This document shows, piece by piece, positions 10,902 through 23,001 of a DNA stretch of 35,111 nucleotides; position 1 is the stretch's first letter; each line of letters opens with the position of its first letter. Location: positions 1 to 35,111 of the forward strand of contig JACPGD010000447.1 in the NCBI GenBank assembly GCA_016182645.1. Reading direction: 5' to 3'. The translations under genes were made by a program, and so were the position numbers. The notes beneath the pieces are model-generated. The model did no database searches. It saw only the letters and a program-made list of their open reading frames with translations, and was not told where the DNA came from. This stretch comes from Candidatus Hydrogenedentota bacterium (GTDB taxonomy: Bacteria; Hydrogenedentota; Hydrogenedentia; Hydrogenedentales; JACPGD01).

Positions 10902-11061
10902 TCAGATAGTAGGGGCCTCGCCCAAGCTGCGTCAACCCGAGGAGGGGCACCGATGAGGGGACAGGAAGAACGGGGCTTGAAGCCCCCCGCTCTCCGTTGG
11001 CTTTCACGCGAGTATGAGTTTTCTATGTTCAATGACCTCAGTTTGCAATTTTTTCGCACTG

Positions 11062-11090
11062 TTGACTTTCCCGGTCTTTTGTGTTAAGCA
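11062..11090 (+). promoter_or_regulatory. Candidate sigma70-type promoter for the pseudopilin operon
   Basis: TTGACT, 17-nt spacer, TAAGCA; weak -10. Confidence 0.3.
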
Positions 11091-11169
11091 TATCATCACT
11101 GTTTGGGCGCAAAACCGCTTGGTCAGGGATCCGGTAGCGTTTTGGGCAACATCACTTGGAAGGGAGTGT

Positions 11170-11700
11170 ATGGTGCGCGCCATGAATTTGGGCGGGAAGA
11201 GGGGCGGCGGCAAGCGGCGAAGAGGGTTTACCCTTGTTGAATTGCTCGTCGCGCTCAGCGTGATCAGCATTGCCGGGTGGGTGTTTGTTTCCTTTTACTC
11301 CTCGGCGCTGGATTTGAACCGCACCGCGGTCAACCGCGCTACCGCGACGCAGATCGCCCAAGACCAGCTACTGTCCATCGTCCAGTCGCCCAAGCAATAT
11401 CAGTGGGCACTTCCGGAACAAGGAGGTGCGGACCTGTTTTCGATCCGCAAAGGTGCGGACGATCCGCCCAGCGGCAACCCGGCCGAACTCCCGGCAGCCA
11501 TGCCGGTCGACCGCAACGCCTTGTCGCAGCAAACCAATTATCACGAACGGTTCCGCTGGTTGGCTTTCGGCCGGCTGCCATCGCCGGAAGCCACCTACTA
11601 CGAGGTCACCGTGGTCGTCCACTGGGAAGAAAGGTCTCGCCAGGAGTCTGTTGCGCTCACTGGCAGCGTGCCCCGTTTTGCCCTGGGAGGAACCGCATGA
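11170..11700 (+). CDS. Type II secretion/type IV pilus-like minor pseudopilin (GspI/PilV-like)
   Basis: RRRGFTLVELLVALSVISIAGWVFVSFY prepilin cleavage and N-methylation motif. Confidence 0.8.
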   Translation: MVRAMNLGGKRGGGKRRRGFTLVELLVALSVISIAGWVFVSFYSSALDLNRTAVNRATATQIAQDQLLSIVQSPKQYQWALPEQGGADLFSIRKGADDPPSGNPAELPAAMPVDRNALSQQTNYHERFRWLAFGRLPSPEATYYEVTVVVHWEERSRQESVALTGSVPRFALGGTA

Positions 11701-12332
11701 GCACACGCCGTGACAGCCGGGGATTCAGCCTCATCGAAATGCTGACAGTGATCGCCTTGCTCGCCGTAATGACCACCATCGGCGTAAACGTGTTCGTCAC
11801 CATTACGGGCGGCTGGACGCAGGCGCGCAAGCGCTCCGACCTGGACAACAAAGCCCAGACGGTGTTCTCCACCATCAAGCAGGACGTTGAGAAGCTCCTT
11901 TCGCAGCGTCTCTCCGGCGTGCCCCTGGTGGGGGAACAGCAGAGCTATCAAGTCGGAGCGGCCGCCTCGCCCTTCTACCGCATCTCGTTTGAGGATGATC
12001 GGATGGTCCTGCCCATTCAGGATCTTGACCCCGTGAGTGGCAAGACCACCGACCAGAATGTGATGTACCACATCGACCGAACGGGTGAAACCCCGGCGTT
12101 GGCGCGTGTGCTCGGCGCCTTGGGGGCGAATCCGCCCGCCGGGGCGACGGCGGCCCAGTGGCCGGGCGTCTACTCGATGCGGGTCGAGTACTTCGATGGT
12201 GAGAATTGGCAGCCCAAGTGGGACCAGCCCGCCCTGCCGCGAAGCGTACGGGTCAGTCTGATGATCGTCGATGAGACGCGGATCGATGAACAAATTGCCC
12301 GCCGGGCCACTTTCGGCATTCACGTGGATTAA
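11697..12332 (+). CDS. Minor pseudopilin (GspJ/PilW-like)
   Basis: SRGFSLIEMLTVIALLAVMTTIGVNVF; ATGA overlap with the upstream gene. Confidence 0.8.
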   Translation: MSTRRDSRGFSLIEMLTVIALLAVMTTIGVNVFVTITGGWTQARKRSDLDNKAQTVFSTIKQDVEKLLSQRLSGVPLVGEQQSYQVGAAASPFYRISFEDDRMVLPIQDLDPVSGKTTDQNVMYHIDRTGETPALARVLGALGANPPAGATAAQWPGVYSMRVEYFDGENWQPKWDQPALPRSVRVSLMIVDETRIDEQIARRATFGIHVD

Positions 12333-12338
12333 TCTCAC

Positions 12339-13466
12339 ATGCGCATGAATCAAGCAAGCCTGACCAGGATCTTCAAGGTGCAGCGCCTCCAGGAGGAGCG
12401 AGGGGCCGCGCTCGTAATCGCGGTGACCCTCCTGTTCCTCTTTGTAGTACTCGGCGCGGCCTACGTGAAGTTCGGGTACCTCGAGATCGATGAGACGAAC
12501 TTTGCCTTGCGCCAGGCCCGCGCGGAGACCCTGGCCGAAGCGGGCATCAACGCCGCCATTGGCAACATTCACCAGGCGCTCGGGCAGAATCAGGCCGCCA
12601 ACGCACTGGGTACCACCAACTACGCCTTTCCGTCTTACAAGGCCGCCAAGGACAGCGATCCGCCCGTCCTTGAGGCGCTTGAGAATCGCGAGGCCTTCGC
12701 CACGGTCAGCGTGCGCGACGAAAGCGGCAAAGTAAACGTGAATCATGCGCCGGCAAGCGTCCTCCAGCGCGTCCTGAACGTGGACGGCGCCACTGCCCGG
12801 GCTATCACGGCCAGCCTTCCGCGCAGCGAAGCGGGGGCCGCGCCGGCGGAGGGCAGCCGCTGGCTGCTGAGTCTCGACGATTTGGCATCGCGCAAGCTGC
12901 TCACGCCGGAACAGTTTGAGAAGCTGGATCAATCGTTGGTGACCACCAGCACCGTGGCGGATCACGCGCACCCCGGCGCCTACCTCAGTATCAACACGGC
13001 GCCCGCGGAAGTGTTGGCCGCCGTACTCGATGTCCCGGCGGAACAGGCCCAGCAAATCATGGCCAAGGGGCCATTCAATTCCATTGCGGCCTTGGCCGAG
13101 GCGGCCGGAAAGACGGTGGATACCTTCAACCTGCATCCGGAATGGCCCATGACCGATGGCATGGTGGCCCCGTTTACCATCCAACCCAACTGTTTCCGGA
13201 TCGCCAGCAGCGCCACGTACAAGGCCGTGAGCGAAGGCCATGAGGCCACGGCCAGTGCCGAGGCCGTGGTGCTGTTTCACGAAGATGGCAGCTACGAAAT
13301 TGTCGACTGGACCACGGCCGAGCCGGAGGAAGATGCCGCCGAGGAGCCTGCGGCCGAACCCGCGGCGGCCGAACCGGCGCCTGCCGAAGCAACGCCGACC
13401 GAGGACGCGCCTGGTGGAAGCCCGGCGGAGACACCCCCAACAGCCCCTGCGGAACCCGCCGCATGA
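12339..13466 (+). CDS. GspK-like general secretion protein with Pro/Ala/Glu-rich tail
   Basis: RGAALVIAVTLLFLFVVLGAAYVKFGYLEIDE; helix-hairpin-helix-like VNVNHAPASVLQRVLNVDGATARAI and INTAPAEVLAAVLDVPAEQAQQIM. Confidence 0.8.
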   Translation: MRMNQASLTRIFKVQRLQEERGAALVIAVTLLFLFVVLGAAYVKFGYLEIDETNFALRQARAETLAEAGINAAIGNIHQALGQNQAANALGTTNYAFPSYKAAKDSDPPVLEALENREAFATVSVRDESGKVNVNHAPASVLQRVLNVDGATARAITASLPRSEAGAAPAEGSRWLLSLDDLASRKLLTPEQFEKLDQSLVTTSTVADHAHPGAYLSINTAPAEVLAAVLDVPAEQAQQIMAKGPFNSIAALAEAAGKTVDTFNLHPEWPMTDGMVAPFTIQPNCFRIASSATYKAVSEGHEATASAEAVVLFHEDGSYEIVDWTTAEPEEDAAEEPAAEPAAAEPAPAEATPTEDAPGGSPAETPPTAPAEPAA

Positions 13467-14758
13467 AAGCACGGCGTCCAGCAGCCAACAAAAGTTTTAT
13501 TGCCTCAAAGGAACCAAATGGAGGAGGAAGCCGCCTTATGGCCACAGCCGACCGGACCGGAGGCGAACGGCGCACCGTAAAGCGCGTCACACGCAAGAAA
13601 ACTACCATCCAAACCGCCGCGGCCGAACCAGCCGAGGAAGAAGTTGTCGTGCGCGTCGCCGAAGAGGCAGTCTCGCCCGGCAGGGCTTCTGTTCGAGGTA
13701 TGGTGCGCCACTCGGATGTCACCAGCTTCCTGCGCCAGCTCATCATGCTGCTCGAGGCGGGCACCCCGATACTGAGATCCCTGAAAACGCTTTCCAGCCG
13801 CGGTCAGCGCGCCTCGGCCCGCGCGCTGATTGCCGATGTGGCCGCCTATGTCGAAGCAGGCAACCCGCTCTGGCAGGCGTTCGACCGGCATCCACGCTAC
13901 TTTGACAGCGTTTTTGTCAACCTTATCCGAGCGAGCGAGGCCAGCGGTACGCTTGTCACCGTGCTCCGCCGCACAGTGGACTACCGGGAGAAGCGCGAAC
14001 TCCTGACCAAACGCGTGCGCGGCGCGATGATCTATCCGATCCTGCTCGTGGTCGCCTGTTTCGGTGTCATGGTGCTGCTGATTACGGTGGTCATCCCGCA
14101 GTTCAAGGACCTGTTCGAGAAGGCGGGTATCGCCGACCAGGTCCCGTGGTATACCAACGTCCTCTTGAACACCTCGGATTCGTTCTTGAAATGGTGCTGG
14201 GTCCCGGTTGTCGCCCTGTTCTTGCTGATTTTTATCTACAAGTTCTGGTATGTACGCGGCCCCTTGCGCCGCCTGCGCGCCGACCGCGTGAAGCTGCGCA
14301 TCCCCATCATGGGCAAGATCCTTCACAAGAGCGCGCTGGTCGAATTGACCCGCACCATGTCCCTCCTCCTGCGCAGCGGCCTGAGCATGATGGCCACCTT
14401 GGAACTCACGCGGAAAGCCATTCACAACCGCGCCGTTGCCCAGAGTCTTCAGGCCGTGCGCGACTCCGTCGAACGCGGCGAAGGCATGGAACCGCCGCTC
14501 CGGCAGAACAGTTCGGTGATCCCCCCCGTGGTGACCGACATGCTGGTCACCGGCGAAGAATCCGGGCGCGTCGATCAAGTCTGTGAACAAATTGCCGACG
14601 TGTTCGAGGAGGAAGTGAAGATTTCCGTGAACACGCTGGGGGAAACGCTGCAGCCAGTCTTCACGGTCATCATTGGCTTCGTCGTCATCTTCCTGTTCAT
14701 CTCCCTCTTCATGCCGCTGGTCACGATGATCCAGGAAATCTCCTCCGCCGGCGTCTAA
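13463..14758 (+). CDS. Type II secretion system F family inner-membrane protein
   Basis: FLRQLIMLLEAGTPILRSLKTLSSR...LVELTRTMSLLLRSGLSMMATLELTRKAIHN...VTDMLVTGEESGRVDQVCEQIADVFEEEV...PLVTMIQEI. Confidence 0.9.
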   Translation: MKARRPAANKSFIASKEPNGGGSRLMATADRTGGERRTVKRVTRKKTTIQTAAAEPAEEEVVVRVAEEAVSPGRASVRGMVRHSDVTSFLRQLIMLLEAGTPILRSLKTLSSRGQRASARALIADVAAYVEAGNPLWQAFDRHPRYFDSVFVNLIRASEASGTLVTVLRRTVDYREKRELLTKRVRGAMIYPILLVVACFGVMVLLITVVIPQFKDLFEKAGIADQVPWYTNVLLNTSDSFLKWCWVPVVALFLLIFIYKFWYVRGPLRRLRADRVKLRIPIMGKILHKSALVELTRTMSLLLRSGLSMMATLELTRKAIHNRAVAQSLQAVRDSVERGEGMEPPLRQNSSVIPPVVTDMLVTGEESGRVDQVCEQIADVFEEEVKISVNTLGETLQPVFTVIIGFVVIFLFISLFMPLVTMIQEISSAGV

Positions 14759-14919: not shown

Positions 14920-16017
14920 TCATCTGGTTGTGGCTGAGCCTCTGAGGGCTGCCATCAGCTCTTCTCGCCGCTCGTAAAGCCGCCGCAGCGGGCGGGGCGC
15001 GTGGGCGTCTAGGGCGTAGGCCGTAAGGAGCGGCAGGGCGACCGTCGAGTCGGCGTAACAGACGACGGCATCGGGGAGGTGGGTGGGATCGACCTTGCCC
15101 CAGGACACCGCTTCAGCGGGAGTGGCCCCGGACAAACCGCCGGTGTCCGGGCGGGCATCGGTCATCTGGATGAAATAGGTGTGGCCGGAGTCGGGCAGGC
15201 CAAGGATTTCCTGGATGTGCGGTTCGGTCTGGAGTACGAAGTTCTTCGGGGAGCCGCCGCCCAGGATCAGAATGGCGGACTTGCCGCCGCGGGTAGCGTC
15301 AAACACGATGGCAGCGGTCTCATTGACGTCGATGTTGGGATCGTATTTGCACTGGCTGCCCTGTAGTGCCACGGCGGCGACATTCATGCCGACAGAACTG
15401 TCGCCAGGCGATGACGTATACACGGGAACGCCCGCGCGGTAGGCGGCGATGAGGAGGCTGGAGGGCGACTGGGAGGCACTGCCGCCCGCGAGGGCTTGTT
15501 GGCGGGCGTCCAGGAACTTGCCGGCGAGGTAGTGGAATTCGGCCGTGCCCATCGTCTTCTGGAACGGTGGCGTCATGATTAGTTCGCGGTAGAACTTGTC
15601 GGTGTCGAGCAGCACGCTGTAGTGAAAGAGGACATCGTAAATGCGGATGATTTCGTCCTCGCGCAACTTGACGTCGTCGACAAACGGCGAGCCCTGGTGC
15701 AGATCCATGCCGAGCGCGAAATGTGTGTCGTGATAGAGATTGGCGCCGGTCGAGACGATCCAGTCCACAAACCCGTATTCGAGCAAGGGAATAAGGCAGG
15801 AACAGCCGAGGCCAGCGGGGGTAAGCGCACCAGAAATGGACAGGCCGATGGTTACATCTTCGGCCAGCATTTTTTCGCTGAAGAGCCGGCAAGCCTCGCG
15901 CAGGCGCCCGCCGTTGTACGCGAGGAAGGCATTATCAATGAGTTCCCGCGCCGTGATGCCGGGGGTGACGGGGGCAGGGGCAATTTTTTTGCCGGCCAGC
16001 CAATGGTGTTTCTTCAT
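14920..16017 (-). CDS. Deoxyhypusine synthase-like family protein
   Basis: [38 protein letters not shown], and C-terminal [16 protein letters not shown] retaining the family Lys. Confidence 0.9.
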
Positions 16018-16094
16018 GAGGGGACCCTCGAGATTGACGCCCGATGGGCGGCCAGACGAGTCGGACGATCGGACGGGTCACACAGCTTGGATGC

Positions 16095-16640
16095 TCAAGG
16101 CAAGAGCACAGCGGCCGCGACGGTCGTGGTCCAGAGACCTTCTTTGTCGCTCAGTGCCGTCTGCGTCATGTGGCTGGTCTTCAACATGATGCCGCTGATC
16201 TTCCATTCTTCGCGCTTCTCGTCCCAGCTCTTATTTGCGTCGAACTTGATGCCCATGACGGTGGCGAACATCTCCGCCGCAAGATCTTCGGCATATTCGC
16301 TGGCCTTGCGCTCGGTAACGCCAAATCCGTGGAATTCAGACAGGTAGCCGAACTGATTGGGGTCCTTGGGGATTGCTATGCCAATGGAGGAGGCCATGAG
16401 CCGGCGCGGTTCGTTGGTGGCCGCTTCGGCGAGTACCACGTGGACGATCTGTCCGGGGCGCATTTCCTTCAGACCCTGCTGGCGCGGAATGATCTTGCAA
16501 TTGGGCGGATAGATGCTCGACACGCGCACGAGATTGAATTGCGCGATGTCCCCGGCACGCAGCGCCATTTCGAAGCTGGACAGTTTTTCTTTGTGGGTCC
16601 CCACGCCACGGGTGAGGAACATCTTTGAAGGAACATACAT
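16095..16640 (-). CDS. pdaD: Pyruvoyl-dependent arginine decarboxylase
   Basis: MYVPSKMFLTRGVGTHKEKLSSFEMALRAGDIAQFNLVRVSSIYPP with Ser-Ser processing site; MASSIGIAIP; ILKT C-terminal region. Confidence 0.9.
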   Translation of the reverse strand: MYVPSKMFLTRGVGTHKEKLSSFEMALRAGDIAQFNLVRVSSIYPPNCKIIPRQQGLKEMRPGQIVHVVLAEAATNEPRRLMASSIGIAIPKDPNQFGYLSEFHGFGVTERKASEYAEDLAAEMFATVMGIKFDANKSWDEKREEWKISGIMLKTSHMTQTALSDKEGLWTTTVAAAVLLP

Positions 16641-16840
16641 GGCGGTACCCTCGACGCTGGACAATCAGAGCTAAACCCACTCCCAAGAGGCAGAGAATCA
16701 ACGGCGTGCACTTCGGCTGGAGCCCCCACGCAGGGAAGCTCGCCGCACGTTGAGCGCAGATTGTACTGATTCCGGGAAGGATTTTCGAGTATCTTCTTGG
16801 TTGGGCTTCTGGAGTCTGGAGTCAAATACCTGGAGGGTCA

Positions 16841-18994
16841 ATGAAGCGCGCACTGCGGCAAGCTCTGATGTATTGCGTTGGGTTCACCTCCCTGGCCGCG
16901 GCCCAAGAGAGTGGAAGTGATGCAACCAGTGAAACGGTAACGGCCACAACGGCACTCCTAGAGAATGGCGGTTTCGAGCAGGACCTCGCCGGACAGCCTC
17001 CTGCCGGCTGGATGGCGCTGGCGGGCGGGGACCGCGCACAAGCGGTGGATGCGGCGGAGAAACTTGCCGGGAGCGCGTCGCTACGCGTGGAGCCAGGATC
17101 GGCCACACTCGCGCTGGCATCTCTCCCCATGGACGTGGCCGCGGGTTTAGAGACCGTGTCTGGCGTGGTCATGGCGCGTGGCGCGGAAAACCTGGAGGCG
17201 CGCCTGCGCTGGCTCCGCGGTGCGGCGGACGGATTCACCTCCACGGCGGCTGCCGTGCGCGAGGACGCCTTTATCCTGGGCGGCCCGGGTGCATGGCGGC
17301 GCTTGACGTTGTCCGAGGTCACTCCGCCGGACGGCGCGCACGCCCTGCAGTTGGTGCTGGTGACCCCTCCCAGCGAAACGCCGGTCTGGTGGGACCAGAT
17401 CCAACTGACGGGGGTCGTGCGACAAACACGCCAGGTCAAGGTGCTGGTGAACCAAGTGGGCTACGAAATAGGCGCGCCCAAGAAGTTTACCGTCGCGACG
17501 AATTTCCCCGCGGAAACGGCGCAGTTCCGAGTGATGGACGAATCGGACGAAGAAGTGTTCAGTGGCGCACTGTCAGGAGGGGAAACCATCACGTCCGGGG
17601 GAGACCGCGCGTGGGGCGATTATTACTGGCGCGGCGATTTTACCGCGTTCGAGTTCAAGGGCGTCTTCACCGTCGAAGCGGAGTTGGGCGAGGTGCGCGG
17701 GCGTGGCCCTGCTTTCGAAGTGGACGTTGATCTACTGTGGAAGCGTACCTTCGAACCGGTCTGGCGCTGCTTCACCTATCATCGCTGTGGAACCAACGTC
17801 GAAGGGTACCACGCTGCCTGCCATTTGGATGATACCGCGGAGGGCGTGTCGCTCGCGGGCGGTTGGCATGAGGGGAGTACTTACGGCAAGGCAAGCACGC
17901 CATGGCTCGCGTGGAAACTCGCGGCCGTCTGCGACACGATCGGATGGCGCTTGAAAAAAGAAACCCCACCGGGCGAAATGCCCTCAATCCTCGAGGAGAC
18001 GGCCTGGGGCGCGGACTTGGTGGCGCGCGCCGTGGGGCCGTCCGGCGCGGCCCGGCCGATGCCCATGTCGAAGCCCGGCTACTGGGGCGCCCCCGAAGCA
18101 GAAACCGACAACCTGGCGGGCAGCGGCGATGAACGGCCCGTGGCCTCGCTGACCTTTGGAAACGCCACCCTCCATACCGCCATGCTCGCGCGCGCGGCCC
18201 ACCTCCTGTGGCCCGAGCGGTCCCTCTACCGGGAAACGGCACAACGGGGATTGGAATGGGCGCTGGCGCAGCACCTGCGCACGCCTTACCAGTTCGAGGC
18301 GGCTTATGAATTATGGACGCTCCGGCCGCCAGCCTGCACGGAGGAAAATCTGCATGACCTGGCGCTGGCGCTGGGCGCGGCGCCTGAAGTGGCCGACAGC
18401 GTGGTGGACTACGAAACAACGTTCGGGACGGGAGTGCTGATGAATCTAGTGACAAAATTGCAAGCCCAGGCCGATGAGCTGCTGCAACGCGCGGACAATC
18501 CTTTCGGCGTCTGTGCCCGGGGTACCGGTCCTCAAGCCCAATTCTTTGAAGCGCCGGAGCAGCCTGCGGATCTTCGGCATGGGAACACGCGATTCGTCCT
18601 CGAGGCCGCGGAGACCGTCGCGAAGGCGTATCGCTTTGTGCCGCGCCCGGAGTATCTGGCGTTTATTCTTGATCAGTTCAACTGGGTGCTGGGAAACAAT
18701 CCGTTTGGCGTCAGTCTGGTGGAAGGCGCCGGCACGGCATTTCTTCCCTCCTATTACCACGGGTACAGCACGACGGGGCTGGCGCGCGGCGCCGTGCCGG
18801 GCGCGGTGGCGGAAGGGATTGCGGCGCGTGGCCCCAGCGATGATCGCCCGTGGCTGGACTTAAGCGGCGCTGAGAAGCCCTATGCCGGCACAAACGCCGT
18901 CTCGCTCGTGAACAATGCCTGCTACCTCGGCGCCCTGGCGCAACTGAAGAGGACCCCGATGGAAGGAGAATTGCCGCCACCCCCAGGCAACTAA
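16841..18994 (+). CDS. Glycoside hydrolase family 9-like protein, probably catalytically inactive
   Basis: N-terminal CBM-like region, CelD-type Ig-like domain (KVLVNQVGYEIGAPKKFTV...), CHLDDTAEGVSLAGGWHEGSTYGKAS, FNWVLGNNPFGVSLVEGAGT, TNAVSLVNNACYLGAL. Confidence 0.85.
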   Translation: MKRALRQALMYCVGFTSLAAAQESGSDATSETVTATTALLENGGFEQDLAGQPPAGWMALAGGDRAQAVDAAEKLAGSASLRVEPGSATLALASLPMDVAAGLETVSGVVMARGAENLEARLRWLRGAADGFTSTAAAVREDAFILGGPGAWRRLTLSEVTPPDGAHALQLVLVTPPSETPVWWDQIQLTGVVRQTRQVKVLVNQVGYEIGAPKKFTVATNFPAETAQFRVMDESDEEVFSGALSGGETITSGGDRAWGDYYWRGDFTAFEFKGVFTVEAELGEVRGRGPAFEVDVDLLWKRTFEPVWRCFTYHRCGTNVEGYHAACHLDDTAEGVSLAGGWHEGSTYGKASTPWLAWKLAAVCDTIGWRLKKETPPGEMPSILEETAWGADLVARAVGPSGAARPMPMSKPGYWGAPEAETDNLAGSGDERPVASLTFGNATLHTAMLARAAHLLWPERSLYRETAQRGLEWALAQHLRTPYQFEAAYELWTLRPPACTEENLHDLALALGAAPEVADSVVDYETTFGTGVLMNLVTKLQAQADELLQRADNPFGVCARGTGPQAQFFEAPEQPADLRHGNTRFVLEAAETVAKAYRFVPRPEYLAFILDQFNWVLGNNPFGVSLVEGAGTAFLPSYYHGYSTTGLARGAVPGAVAEGIAARGPSDDRPWLDLSGAEKPYAGTNAVSLVNNACYLGALAQLKRTPMEGELPPPPGN

Positions 18995-19046: not shown

Positions 19047-19904
19047 ATGAGCGGCTATGTTTATGAGAGCGCGGTGCAGCGGCAGCCATGGCGCGTAATT
19101 CGAGAACTTGCGCGTGCCCGGCACCTGCTGCTGGATCTGGTCTGGAAAGACTTGCGGGCGCGCTACCGCTACACGGTCCTGGGGTTCTTCTGGGCGGTGG
19201 CGCAGCCAGTCGCCCTGATGGTGCTGCTTACGTTCATTTTCACGGTGGTCTTCCCTGGCCGGCTGGATGCTGTCGCGGGCGCCCCACAACGTGATTTCGC
19301 CGTGATGATCCTCTGCGGCCTCGTCTTTTGGCAGTTCCTGGCGACCGCGCTCAGTGCCGCCACCCGCAGCGTGGTGGACAACCGGACGCTCGTCAACAAA
19401 GTCCATTTTGCCCGCGAAGTCCTCCCACTGGCGGCTGTGCTGTATCCCCTCGTTAATCTTGCTTTGGGCGTGGTTGTCCTCGTCGTCGTGCATTTGGCGC
19501 GCGGCGGGGAAGCGGGACTGGGGTTGCTCTGGCTGGCGCCCCTGTTTGTCATCGAGCTTGCCTTAGCCACAGGCCTGGGGTTGCTCTGCGCCTGCGGGCA
19601 GGTCTACTACCAGGACGTCGGCTATCTCGTGGACATTGGCCTCCTCTTCGGGTTCTACGCCTCACCGGTGTTCTATCCCCTGGAGTGGATTCTGAACAGT
19701 GGCGCCGTGCCCGAGTTGGTCCGGGCGCTATACCTGGCGAACCCGATGGCGGGCCTGCTGAGCGCCTATCGTGAAATCTTGTTCGCGCAGCAGGTCCCCG
19801 CGCCATCGATTTGGTTGTGGCCCGCGCTGTGTTCCCTGCTGCTGCTCCTCGCGGGATTGTGGCTGTTCCGGCGCTGCGCCCCCACCTTTTCGGATCGGCT
19901 CTGA
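19047..19904 (+). CDS. ABC-2 polysaccharide exporter permease (Wzm/TagG-like)
   Basis: LVWKDLRARYRYTVLGFFWAVAQPVALMVLLTFIFTVVF...FWQFLATAL...ASPVFYPLEWI...NPMAGLLSAYREIL. Confidence 0.9.
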   Translation: MSGYVYESAVQRQPWRVIRELARARHLLLDLVWKDLRARYRYTVLGFFWAVAQPVALMVLLTFIFTVVFPGRLDAVAGAPQRDFAVMILCGLVFWQFLATALSAATRSVVDNRTLVNKVHFAREVLPLAAVLYPLVNLALGVVVLVVVHLARGGEAGLGLLWLAPLFVIELALATGLGLLCACGQVYYQDVGYLVDIGLLFGFYASPVFYPLEWILNSGAVPELVRALYLANPMAGLLSAYREILFAQQVPAPSIWLWPALCSLLLLLAGLWLFRRCAPTFSDRL

Positions 19905-22048
19905 TGCGGGAAGCGGGGTGCACATCGGGGGAGCCGCCGCAGGAGAGCGGGAACGGGGCTGGAAGCCCGGGCTGCGTCATCTCCATCCAAAACGTCGCCA
20001 AGATGTATCCGCAGCGGCGGGGTTCGAGCCGCCTCCTCGGGCGTGGAGGGCTGCATGAATGGCTGGGGCGCCGCCGCCCCGCGCGCGTCCCGGTACTCCA
20101 GGAGATCAACCTCACGGTACGCCGTGGCGAGACCCTGGGCATCATCGGCCGTAACGGCTCGGGCAAGAGCACACTGCTCAAGTTGATGGCCGGCGTAACG
20201 TTGCCAACGTCGGGCGCCGTGACGGTGCGCGGCCGCATTGCTTCCCTCTTGGAACTCGGCGCGGGTTTTCATCCCATGCTTAGCGGCCGCGAGAACATCT
20301 ACCTGAACGCCGGGCTGCTCGGTATGCGCCATGAAAGCGTGGACCGCGTCCTCGAGCCGATCATCGAGTTCTCCGGCTTGCGCGAATTCATCGATCAGCC
20401 GGTCGAGACTTACAGCAGCGGCATGTATGTGCGCCTGGGCTTCTCCGTGGCTGTCCATGCGAACCCCGAAGTATTCCTGGTGGATGAGGTGCTGGCGGTG
20501 GGCGACGAAGAGTTCCAGCGCAAGTGCCGGCGCAAAATCGGCGAGTTGAAGGAACAAGGCAAGACCATCGTCTTCGTTTCACACGATCTTGGGTCGGTGC
20601 ATGCGCTGTGCGACCGCGTCGTTCTCTTGCAGCAGGGCCGCATGCTCGACCGCGGCAGCGCCCAAGCCACGATAGACTTCTACCTCCGCCAGATTGGGAG
20701 TGCCTCGGCCATCCACCTGTTAGGGCAGGGGGACATGGAAGTCATCTTCAGTCATGGCCGCCTGTCCCTTTTTCATCGGCAGCGCGAATTGACGAGCGCG
20801 CGCGGCCTCTCGTTTCTGGCGGTCTCGCTCGGGAACTACCATAGCTCGGGCGAAGCGGATTGGGAACTCACGGAGAAGACCGAGACCTCCGTGCTCGCGC
20901 GCGGGCGGCTGCCGCGTCTCCCCATAACGTGGAATTGCCGCATCGCGCTGACCGGCGGCGCGCTGCAGATGGATCTGGCCCTGGAGGTCGAGCGGGCGTG
21001 TGCCGTGCAGCACATTGCCCTGGCCCTTCATGCCCCGACCGAGTATGCGCACTGGTACTTGGGCGATCGCATGGGAACCTTCCCGCCCATTTCCCCTGAA
21101 GATACCGAGCCCACCCTGCTGGCGCCGCCCGCGCCTGGTGTCCGGGAAGTCTGCATCGCCGCCCCGCAGGACGCGCCGCCGCCCCTTCAACTCACCCGGG
21201 AAGCCGGACACCCGCATGTGGCCTTCCAATTGCAGAACGGCGATTATGCAGGCAGCGCGCGCATCGTCTATGCCGGATTGAACCTGCCCGAATCCGAGTC
21301 GCGATTAGCGCCAGGCCGCTTTGAGTTTGGCCGATTTCAACTCGCAGTGGCCCCCGGGCGGGCCAGTGTGGACGAGCGCTTTGAAGTCCAGCGGGCGCGT
21401 CGGCGCATTGTATCCGGGGCGTACACAGCAACGTTCGACGGGGGTTCCATTGCCATTTTCAAAGGAGAATTGCCGATTACGGCGGACGTGCACTGGCACA
21501 CCGAACTTCGCGCGGGAGATCTGTGGCTCATGAGCCATGCAGTGCGTTGGGGCGAGGTGACCCGCGAGGGGGACACCCTGATGGTGGCGGGAGCTTCCGT
21601 GCGGATACCGGGGACGCACGAGTGGCGCTTACGCCCCGTCGAGAATGGATTTCAGTTGGAAGTGATCTTGGAACTGACCGCCTCCTTGACCCTGCAAGAG
21701 TACAATGTCTCTGTCGCCCTGACGAATGCCTACGCGCAGTGGGCCACGCCGCGGGAATCCGGGCCGTTTCCCCCCATTTCTCCAGAGAGCCAGGAGTGGG
21801 TGCACTTGAGCGATCAGTATCCCGAGGCGGCGTACATCGCGGCGTCAGGCCCCGGATTGCCGCAGGTGCGCCTTGCCCCTGACCCGGAGGGCGAGTGCTT
21901 CCGGATGAGCGCCCTGAATACGGCGTACAGCCAGCAGGCCCGCGTCATCCAGGCCCTGCGTACGCCCGGCCGCAGCCTCGTGTTCCCGCTGCCGGCCGGC
22001 CGGCACGAACTCTTCCGTGGAACAGTGACGGTGAAGGACGAAGGATGA
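19904..22048 (+). CDS. ABC polysaccharide exporter ATPase (Wzt-like) with long duplicated C-terminal extension
   Basis: Walker A GRNGSGKST, signature YSSGMYVRLGF, Walker B VFLVDEVLAVGD; about 450 residues follow the ATPase. Start overlaps the permease stop. Confidence 0.9.
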   Translation: MREAGCTSGEPPQESGNGAGSPGCVISIQNVAKMYPQRRGSSRLLGRGGLHEWLGRRRPARVPVLQEINLTVRRGETLGIIGRNGSGKSTLLKLMAGVTLPTSGAVTVRGRIASLLELGAGFHPMLSGRENIYLNAGLLGMRHESVDRVLEPIIEFSGLREFIDQPVETYSSGMYVRLGFSVAVHANPEVFLVDEVLAVGDEEFQRKCRRKIGELKEQGKTIVFVSHDLGSVHALCDRVVLLQQGRMLDRGSAQATIDFYLRQIGSASAIHLLGQGDMEVIFSHGRLSLFHRQRELTSARGLSFLAVSLGNYHSSGEADWELTEKTETSVLARGRLPRLPITWNCRIALTGGALQMDLALEVERACAVQHIALALHAPTEYAHWYLGDRMGTFPPISPEDTEPTLLAPPAPGVREVCIAAPQDAPPPLQLTREAGHPHVAFQLQNGDYAGSARIVYAGLNLPESESRLAPGRFEFGRFQLAVAPGRASVDERFEVQRARRRIVSGAYTATFDGGSIAIFKGELPITADVHWHTELRAGDLWLMSHAVRWGEVTREGDTLMVAGASVRIPGTHEWRLRPVENGFQLEVILELTASLTLQEYNVSVALTNAYAQWATPRESGPFPPISPESQEWVHLSDQYPEAAYIAASGPGLPQVRLAPDPEGECFRMSALNTAYSQQARVIQALRTPGRSLVFPLPAGRHELFRGTVTVKDEG

Positions 22049-23001
22049 AGGAACCGGTCAGCGTCAGTATTGTGGTGCCCACCTATAACCAGGCGGAAGT
22101 GCTCAAGGGGTTGCTGGCGTCGTTGGAGGCATTGCAGGCGCATCGCCCGTTTGAAGTCCTGATTGTCGATGATGCCTCGGTTGACCACACCCGCGAAGTG
22201 GTGGAGACCTGGCTGCGGAGGGGCCTTCCATTCGGGCAGCGCTACCTCCGGCTTGAAAAGAATAGCGGCCCGGGCGGTGCGCGCAATGCAGGCGCGCGCG
22301 CGGCGGCCGGGGACATTGTCGCGTTCACGGACAGTGATTGCCGCGTCGATCCCCACTGGCTGGAACACCTTGTGCGCGGGATCCACCGGGACAAGAACGT
22401 CATCGGGGCCGGTGGTCACGTCTTGCCTGCCGCCCAGGTAACCCCCTACGCCCGGTATATGTATCTCCACCGTGTTCTCGATCCGCCGCCCAACCTTCAG
22501 TACTTGGTTACGTGCAATTGCGCCATCGTACGCGAGTGCTTTCTCGAGGTGGGCGGTTTCCCCGAAGATCTGCCCATGCCGGGGGGGGAAGACATCGAAC
22601 TCAGCATCCAGTTGTGGAAGCGCGGGGGGCGGTTTGCGTTCGTGCCGGACGCTCTGATTCACCACGAGCACCGCGACACGCTCCGTTCGTTCGTTCGCAC
22701 GTGGCGTAATTACGGCTACGGAACGGGCCTCGCCACGCACCGCACTCTGGATTCGAGCGAACTGGCTGGCCGGCCCTCGGAGAATCCAAACTATTGGAGC
22801 ATCGAGTACGTACTGCCGCTCCCACGAGGCCGCCGCGTGATCTGGGGGGCCTTCAAGTACCACCTCGCCGAGTGCCGCGGGCACCGCTTTGGTCCCCGGC
22901 GAACGCTGGAAACCCTGTCCCTGTGGGCGATTGAGCGGCTGGCCTACGGGCGTGGCTGGCGGCAAGGGCAGCAGGCGGCGCAACGTCAGAAGTGTCGTTG
23001 A
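22045..23001 (+). CDS. Family 2 glycosyltransferase
   Basis: VSIVVPTYNQAEVLKGLLASL...VLIVDDASVDHT...GPGGARNAGARAAAGDIVAFTDSDC; ATGA overlap with the ATPase gene. Confidence 0.9.
   Translation: MKEPVSVSIVVPTYNQAEVLKGLLASLEALQAHRPFEVLIVDDASVDHTREVVETWLRRGLPFGQRYLRLEKNSGPGGARNAGARAAAGDIVAFTDSDCRVDPHWLEHLVRGIHRDKNVIGAGGHVLPAAQVTPYARYMYLHRVLDPPPNLQYLVTCNCAIVRECFLEVGGFPEDLPMPGGEDIELSIQLWKRGGRFAFVPDALIHHEHRDTLRSFVRTWRNYGYGTGLATHRTLDSSELAGRPSENPNYWSIEYVLPLPRGRRVIWGAFKYHLAECRGHRFGPRRTLETLSLWAIERLAYGRGWRQGQQAAQRQKCR

Follow-up and report, generated by a model that had tools for sequence, protein, structure and literature searches.

A clade of degenerate GH9 paralogs retained across the phylum Candidatus Hydrogenedentota

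Results

A GH9-related gene and its genomic neighborhood

The window analyzed here, a stretch of 35,111 nucleotides (contig JACPGD010000447.1 of assembly GCA_016182645.1), originates from the uncultured bacterial phylum Candidatus Hydrogenedentota, and its family is represented by one genome among those searched. At positions 16841..18994 of the plus strand, to which all coordinates within this gene refer, the window contains an intact open reading frame for a 717-amino acid protein, denoted pseudo-GH9, which was characterized using Pfam profiles, an alignment and a tree with masked motif columns. The ATG is preceded by a Shine-Dalgarno-like GGAGGG (16832..16837). The length, position and motif sequences given for this gene in the initial annotation proved exact.

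The protein starts with a predicted Sec-type signal peptide, MKRALRQALMYCVGFTSLAAAQ (residues 1-22; 16841..16906), without a lipobox Cys; several relatives also have N-termini resembling signal peptides, and the corresponding helix 2-23 of the AlphaFold model is of low confidence. The signal peptide is followed by an N-terminal beta-sandwich (residues 32-196; 16934..17428), which was recognized from the strands of the model and by Foldseek; a CelD_N Ig-like domain (residues 199-281; 17435..17683; Pfam PF02927, 3.4e-11, 44 bits with a cut-off of 24.6); and a GH9 (alpha/alpha) barrel (residues about 298-706; 17732..18958; PF00759, 2.4e-18). The GH9 profile score, 67.1 bits, is well above the curated cut-off of 27.7, and the family assignment is corroborated by the predicted fold.

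Downstream, after 52 bp, come genes for an ABC-2 permease, an ABC ATPase and a family-2 glycosyltransferase (GT2) (19047-23001, plus strand), which likely form a polysaccharide export set; the ATPase has a long C-terminal part without a Pfam match. Upstream, a 194-aa open reading frame (16044-16628, plus strand) has neither a family match nor a homolog in the neighbor set and may be spurious. It is preceded by a gene for a deoxyhypusine synthase-family protein (14920-16017, minus strand; 225 bits), here in a bacterium, which adjoins type II secretion genes (T2SSK, T2SSF and pilin-like; 11014-14758).

The AlphaFold model, built from an alignment of 30 sequences (mean pLDDT 87, pTM 0.86), comprises the N-terminal sandwich, the Ig domain and the alpha barrel. 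Its leading PDB matches in Foldseek are all GH9 enzymes, with 3x17 at the top. For the sandwich, Foldseek also lists 3k4z, which is a CBM4 module from CbhA (E 1.4e-7), but with a low TM-score that perhaps reflects a different orientation of two modules. No Pfam CBM match was obtained for the window protein or A2 members at E<=1, so that 'CBM4-like' refers to the fold only. Trp57, Trp124 and Trp184 are conserved in this domain; its absolute conservation is low (27-35%) and does not allow a specific ligand site to be pinpointed. Together, the N-terminal sequence, Pfam, the model and Foldseek bear out the secretion signal and accessory domains that had been proposed for this protein.

Degeneration of the catalytic motifs

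In GH9 enzymes, the DAGD motif contributes a pair of Asp residues, the second of which is the catalytic base, and the Glu of the NE motif is the catalytic acid. These roles, and that of the metal site, are as in T. fusca Cel9A, CelD and AaCel9A. The window protein was aligned with 23 intact paralogs, all from the same phylum, and each of the motifs was found to be altered. The first motif, GGWHEGSTYGKA (residues 340-351; 17858..17893), reads GGWHEGSTYGK where the intact paralogs have GGWHDAGDYNx, with D to E at 344 and D to T at 347, the position of the base. The HHR motif (residues 639-641; 18755..18763) is YHG, and HHRY of the intact paralogs corresponds to YHGY, with Gly641 in place of Arg. 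The second motif, TNAVSLVNNA (residues 684-693; 18890..18919), aligns with SNEVWLPHN and has Ala686 at the position of the acid Glu. Thus, the replacement of the catalytic Glu by Ala and the disruption of the HxR motif claimed in the initial annotation hold, whereas the claim that both Asp of the base motif are lost needs one correction: the second Asp is replaced by Thr347, but the replacement of the first is Glu344, which preserves the acidic character.

The window protein retains the ligands of a Cys2His2 site, C316, C327 and H328 (17786..17824) and H343 (17867-17869), as do the 23 intact paralogs without exception; we take this to be a metal site, as in AaCel9A. No conserved new acidic residue near the acid position was identified in the alignment of degenerate and intact sequences, and E678 of the window protein aligns with an Asp already present in the active paralogs. 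Close to the C-terminus, the protein contains an LKR tail (residues 702-704; 18944..18952), of which R704 is conserved in 93% of the degenerate clade described below vs 9 of the 23 intact paralogs.

Intact paralogs with a beta-propeller

The genome that contains the window encodes, on another contig (C292, L036), an intact paralog of 1143 aa that consists of a beta-propeller, a CBM4-like domain, a CelD_N Ig domain and a GH9 domain, with the motifs GGWHDAGDYN, HHRY and SNEVWLPHN. Intact GH9 proteins with an N-terminal beta-propeller of the PQQ/FG-GAP type are encoded at several other Hydrogenedentota loci (L039, L044, L048 and others). Among the best 80 contig matches, this architecture was found only in the top, Hydrogenedentota-like loci; Hydrogenedentota-type propeller-GH9 genes are also contained in two public records labelled Nitrospiraceae and Phycisphaerae (L060 and L058, respectively). 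A second GH9 type has the motif GGWHSAGDYNK, with Ser replacing the first Asp and the acid Glu present (L037, 2-1360, which is contig C494 of the window's genome, and L034, 1178-3736). A scan of the genome contigs with a single protein yielded no match.

A degenerate clade across the phylum

Among 68 Hydrogenedentota genomes searched, we identified 28 alignable degenerate paralogs from six families (f1, f3, f7, f9, f10 and f11). In a tree of these sequences and the 23 intact ones, the degenerate proteins form a single clade with support of 99/100 after masking of the motif columns; in an unmasked tree with fewer sequences, the support was 100/100. The intact paralog, this clade and the tandem arrangement described below all go beyond the initial annotation.

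Of the 26 degenerate relatives in which the column of the acid Glu is occupied, 25 have Gly, Ala or Ser. The lone Glu belongs to a sequence (L180) that is too diverged for reliable alignment there, and none of the 28 degenerate paralogs has a credible acid Glu. Because the reading frame is open and the relatives share the replacement, the degenerate motifs are neither chance nor a sequencing error. The base Asp (position 347) survives in 5 of the 28 sequences, and position 344 is Asp or Glu in 22. Family f10 has deletions of the HHR loop and of the loops bearing the first motif. The window protein and families f9 and f7 have the Cys2His2 site; f3 and f10 have lost it. The clade has its own characteristic residues, W369, F485 and R598. 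The acid Glu looks to have been lost in a single ancient event, and the simplest order of changes places this loss first, followed by that of the base and erosion of the cleft. Within the clade, the propeller is still found in three members of f9 and at least two of f11, which implies that the duplication took in the whole enzyme and that the propeller was lost later.

Selection and constraint

All 28 degenerate sequences, across the six families, are open reading frames. The NG86 estimates of dN/dS, taken from pairs with usable dS because dS is saturated in distant pairs, are 0.09-0.22, and the less saturated pairs of intact paralogs yield about 0.12-0.14. Examination of dN/dS in relatives, which the initial annotation had proposed, thus points to purifying selection.

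We further compared the two paralogs in the 13 genomes that carry both. Within the catalytic region (residues 298-432), the identity is 31% among the degenerate copies vs 71% among the intact ones, and it is lower for the degenerate copy in 78 of 78 genome pairs, which are not mutually independent, although the contrast between domains of the same genes is clear. In the CBM4-like domain, the respective values are 35% and 34%, whereas the Ig domain and the remaining barrel show a smaller drop in the degenerate copy. Constraint was lost at the catalytic side and not in the N-terminal domain.

Tandem arrangement and co-occurrence

In eight genomes of families f9, f3 and f10 (G015, G021, G002, G010, G047, G016, G055 and G009), the degenerate gene immediately precedes the intact one, in the same orientation. 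G021 and G016 have a 4-bp overlap between the two genes, and most of the other tandems have gaps of tens of bases, depending on the choice of the start codon; in G015, the intact open reading frame is open for the 3' part only. This arrangement is probably ancestral. The two genes of the window's genome are on separate contigs and non-adjacent.

By hand count, the intact paralog is absent in about 15 of the 29 genomes with the degenerate gene, including all of family f7, where genome completeness is 86-96%. Co-occurrence of the two genes (Fisher odds ratio 2.7, p 0.07, uncorrected for kinship) is too weak for an obligate partnership, which we rejected. Apart from the intact paralog, operon partners are conserved within genera but not across families. 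A conserved protein of 255-282 aa is encoded just upstream of the degenerate gene in each of the four f7 genomes (L050-L052, L183); it has no Pfam match in the two loci scanned (L050, L052).

Discussion

The monophyly of the degenerate paralogs, the loss of the acid Glu throughout, the stepwise disappearance of the base Asp and the catalytic loops, and the relaxation at the catalytic side under overall purifying selection support well the view that pseudo-GH9 is a pseudoenzyme, as the initial annotation had it: the catalytic loss is conserved in a retained clade. Given the loss of both acid and base, the window protein should be incapable of GH9-type inverting hydrolysis. The reading that we consider probable is that of an old, vertically inherited, secreted, non-hydrolytic protein, which probably binds glycans. 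The alignment and the tree indicate that an ancestor in the Hydrogenedentota duplicated a secreted enzyme composed of a beta-propeller, a CBM4-like domain, an Ig domain and a GH9 domain, and that one of the duplicates lost the acid Glu. This copy was passed on vertically; in most lineages, the propeller was dropped, and erosion or deletion affected the base Asp, the HHR loop and the cleft. The window protein is predicted, from its signal peptide and fold, to be exported by the Sec pathway, with the CBM4-like domain, the Ig domain and a folded barrel kept. There, outside the cytoplasmic membrane, it most likely would hold a polysaccharide via the CBM4-like face, with the barrel serving as a rigid scaffold. 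Glycan binding is plausible in view of the CBM4-like and Ig domains; binding in the cleft is unlikely because members of the clade do not share a conserved cleft.

The tandem arrangement also fits a protein partner. The degenerate protein could be an inactive partner or regulator, either prozyme-like or a targeting subunit, that is co-translated with the active propeller-GH9 and binds it. The gene order in eight genomes of three families, with the two 4-bp overlaps, is compatible with such a role, and the conserved LKR tail together with W369, F485 and R598 could form an interface; however, the many genomes without an intact paralog, the weak co-occurrence and the separation of the two genes in the window's genome make this reading a possible but less than likely one. 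In a mixed version, which we regard as unlikely, the protein originated as a non-catalytic subunit of the new propeller-GH9, from an ancestral co-translated tandem, and acquired an independent role later, where the enzyme was lost. That the protein has remained an enzyme, either through relocated catalytic residues or through other chemistry on the same barrel, seems improbable: the degenerate sequences share no novel acidic residue close to the acid position, E678 corresponds to an Asp of the active paralogs, and the catalytic region erodes fastest, with loops deleted in f10, even though E344 and the Cys2His2 site are kept in the window protein, position 344 is usually acidic in the clade, and some published pseudoenzymes proved active (PMC12037411). 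A functionless, decaying pseudogene would account for the faster evolution of the degenerate copy compared with the intact paralog; such decay is very hard to reconcile with 28 open frames in six families, dN/dS well below 1 and retention of the gene in many genomes that lack the intact paralog.

Dead glycoside hydrolases are already known. Leaf beetles keep inactive GH28 paralogs beside active ones (PMC6549527), a case that differs from pseudo-GH9 in family, host kingdom and fold. For the coconut rhinoceros beetle, a GH9 protein without measured activity has been reported (PMC10981690); this is a single animal gene, its inactivity was measured, and the parts of the report available to us describe no conserved dead clade. 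Within a literature collection containing a minority of subscription journals and preprints, our search did not turn up any bacterial clade of inherited dead GH9 proteins. Dead relatives of glycoside hydrolases are usually noticed as lone oddities, whereas here a whole clade extends over six or more families of a single phylum, and its graded active-site erosion, beside intact sister genes, provides a natural series of what becomes of a cellulase fold after cutting ends. It is also a warning that cellulose degraders in the Hydrogenedentota are overcounted when GH9 genes are annotated automatically.

Among characterized proteins, the GH9 exo-glucosaminidases of Vibrio and Photobacterium (3h7l, 6gdt, 5dgq) rank among the top sequence-profile matches of the degenerate clade as well as of the intact one; unlike pseudo-GH9, they are active and lack the CBM4-like domain. 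CbhA of C. thermocellum (1ut9, 3k4z) has CBM4-like, Ig and GH9 modules in the same order but is an active cellobiohydrolase with low identity to the window protein (17%). The theme C GH9 endoglucanases with an Ig domain (3x17; AaCel9A, 3ez8 and 3gzk; CelD, 1clc) share with it the Ig and GH9 folds and the metal-type Cys2His2 site, whereas the catalytic acid Glu, the base Asp and the Arg of HHR are missing from the window protein.
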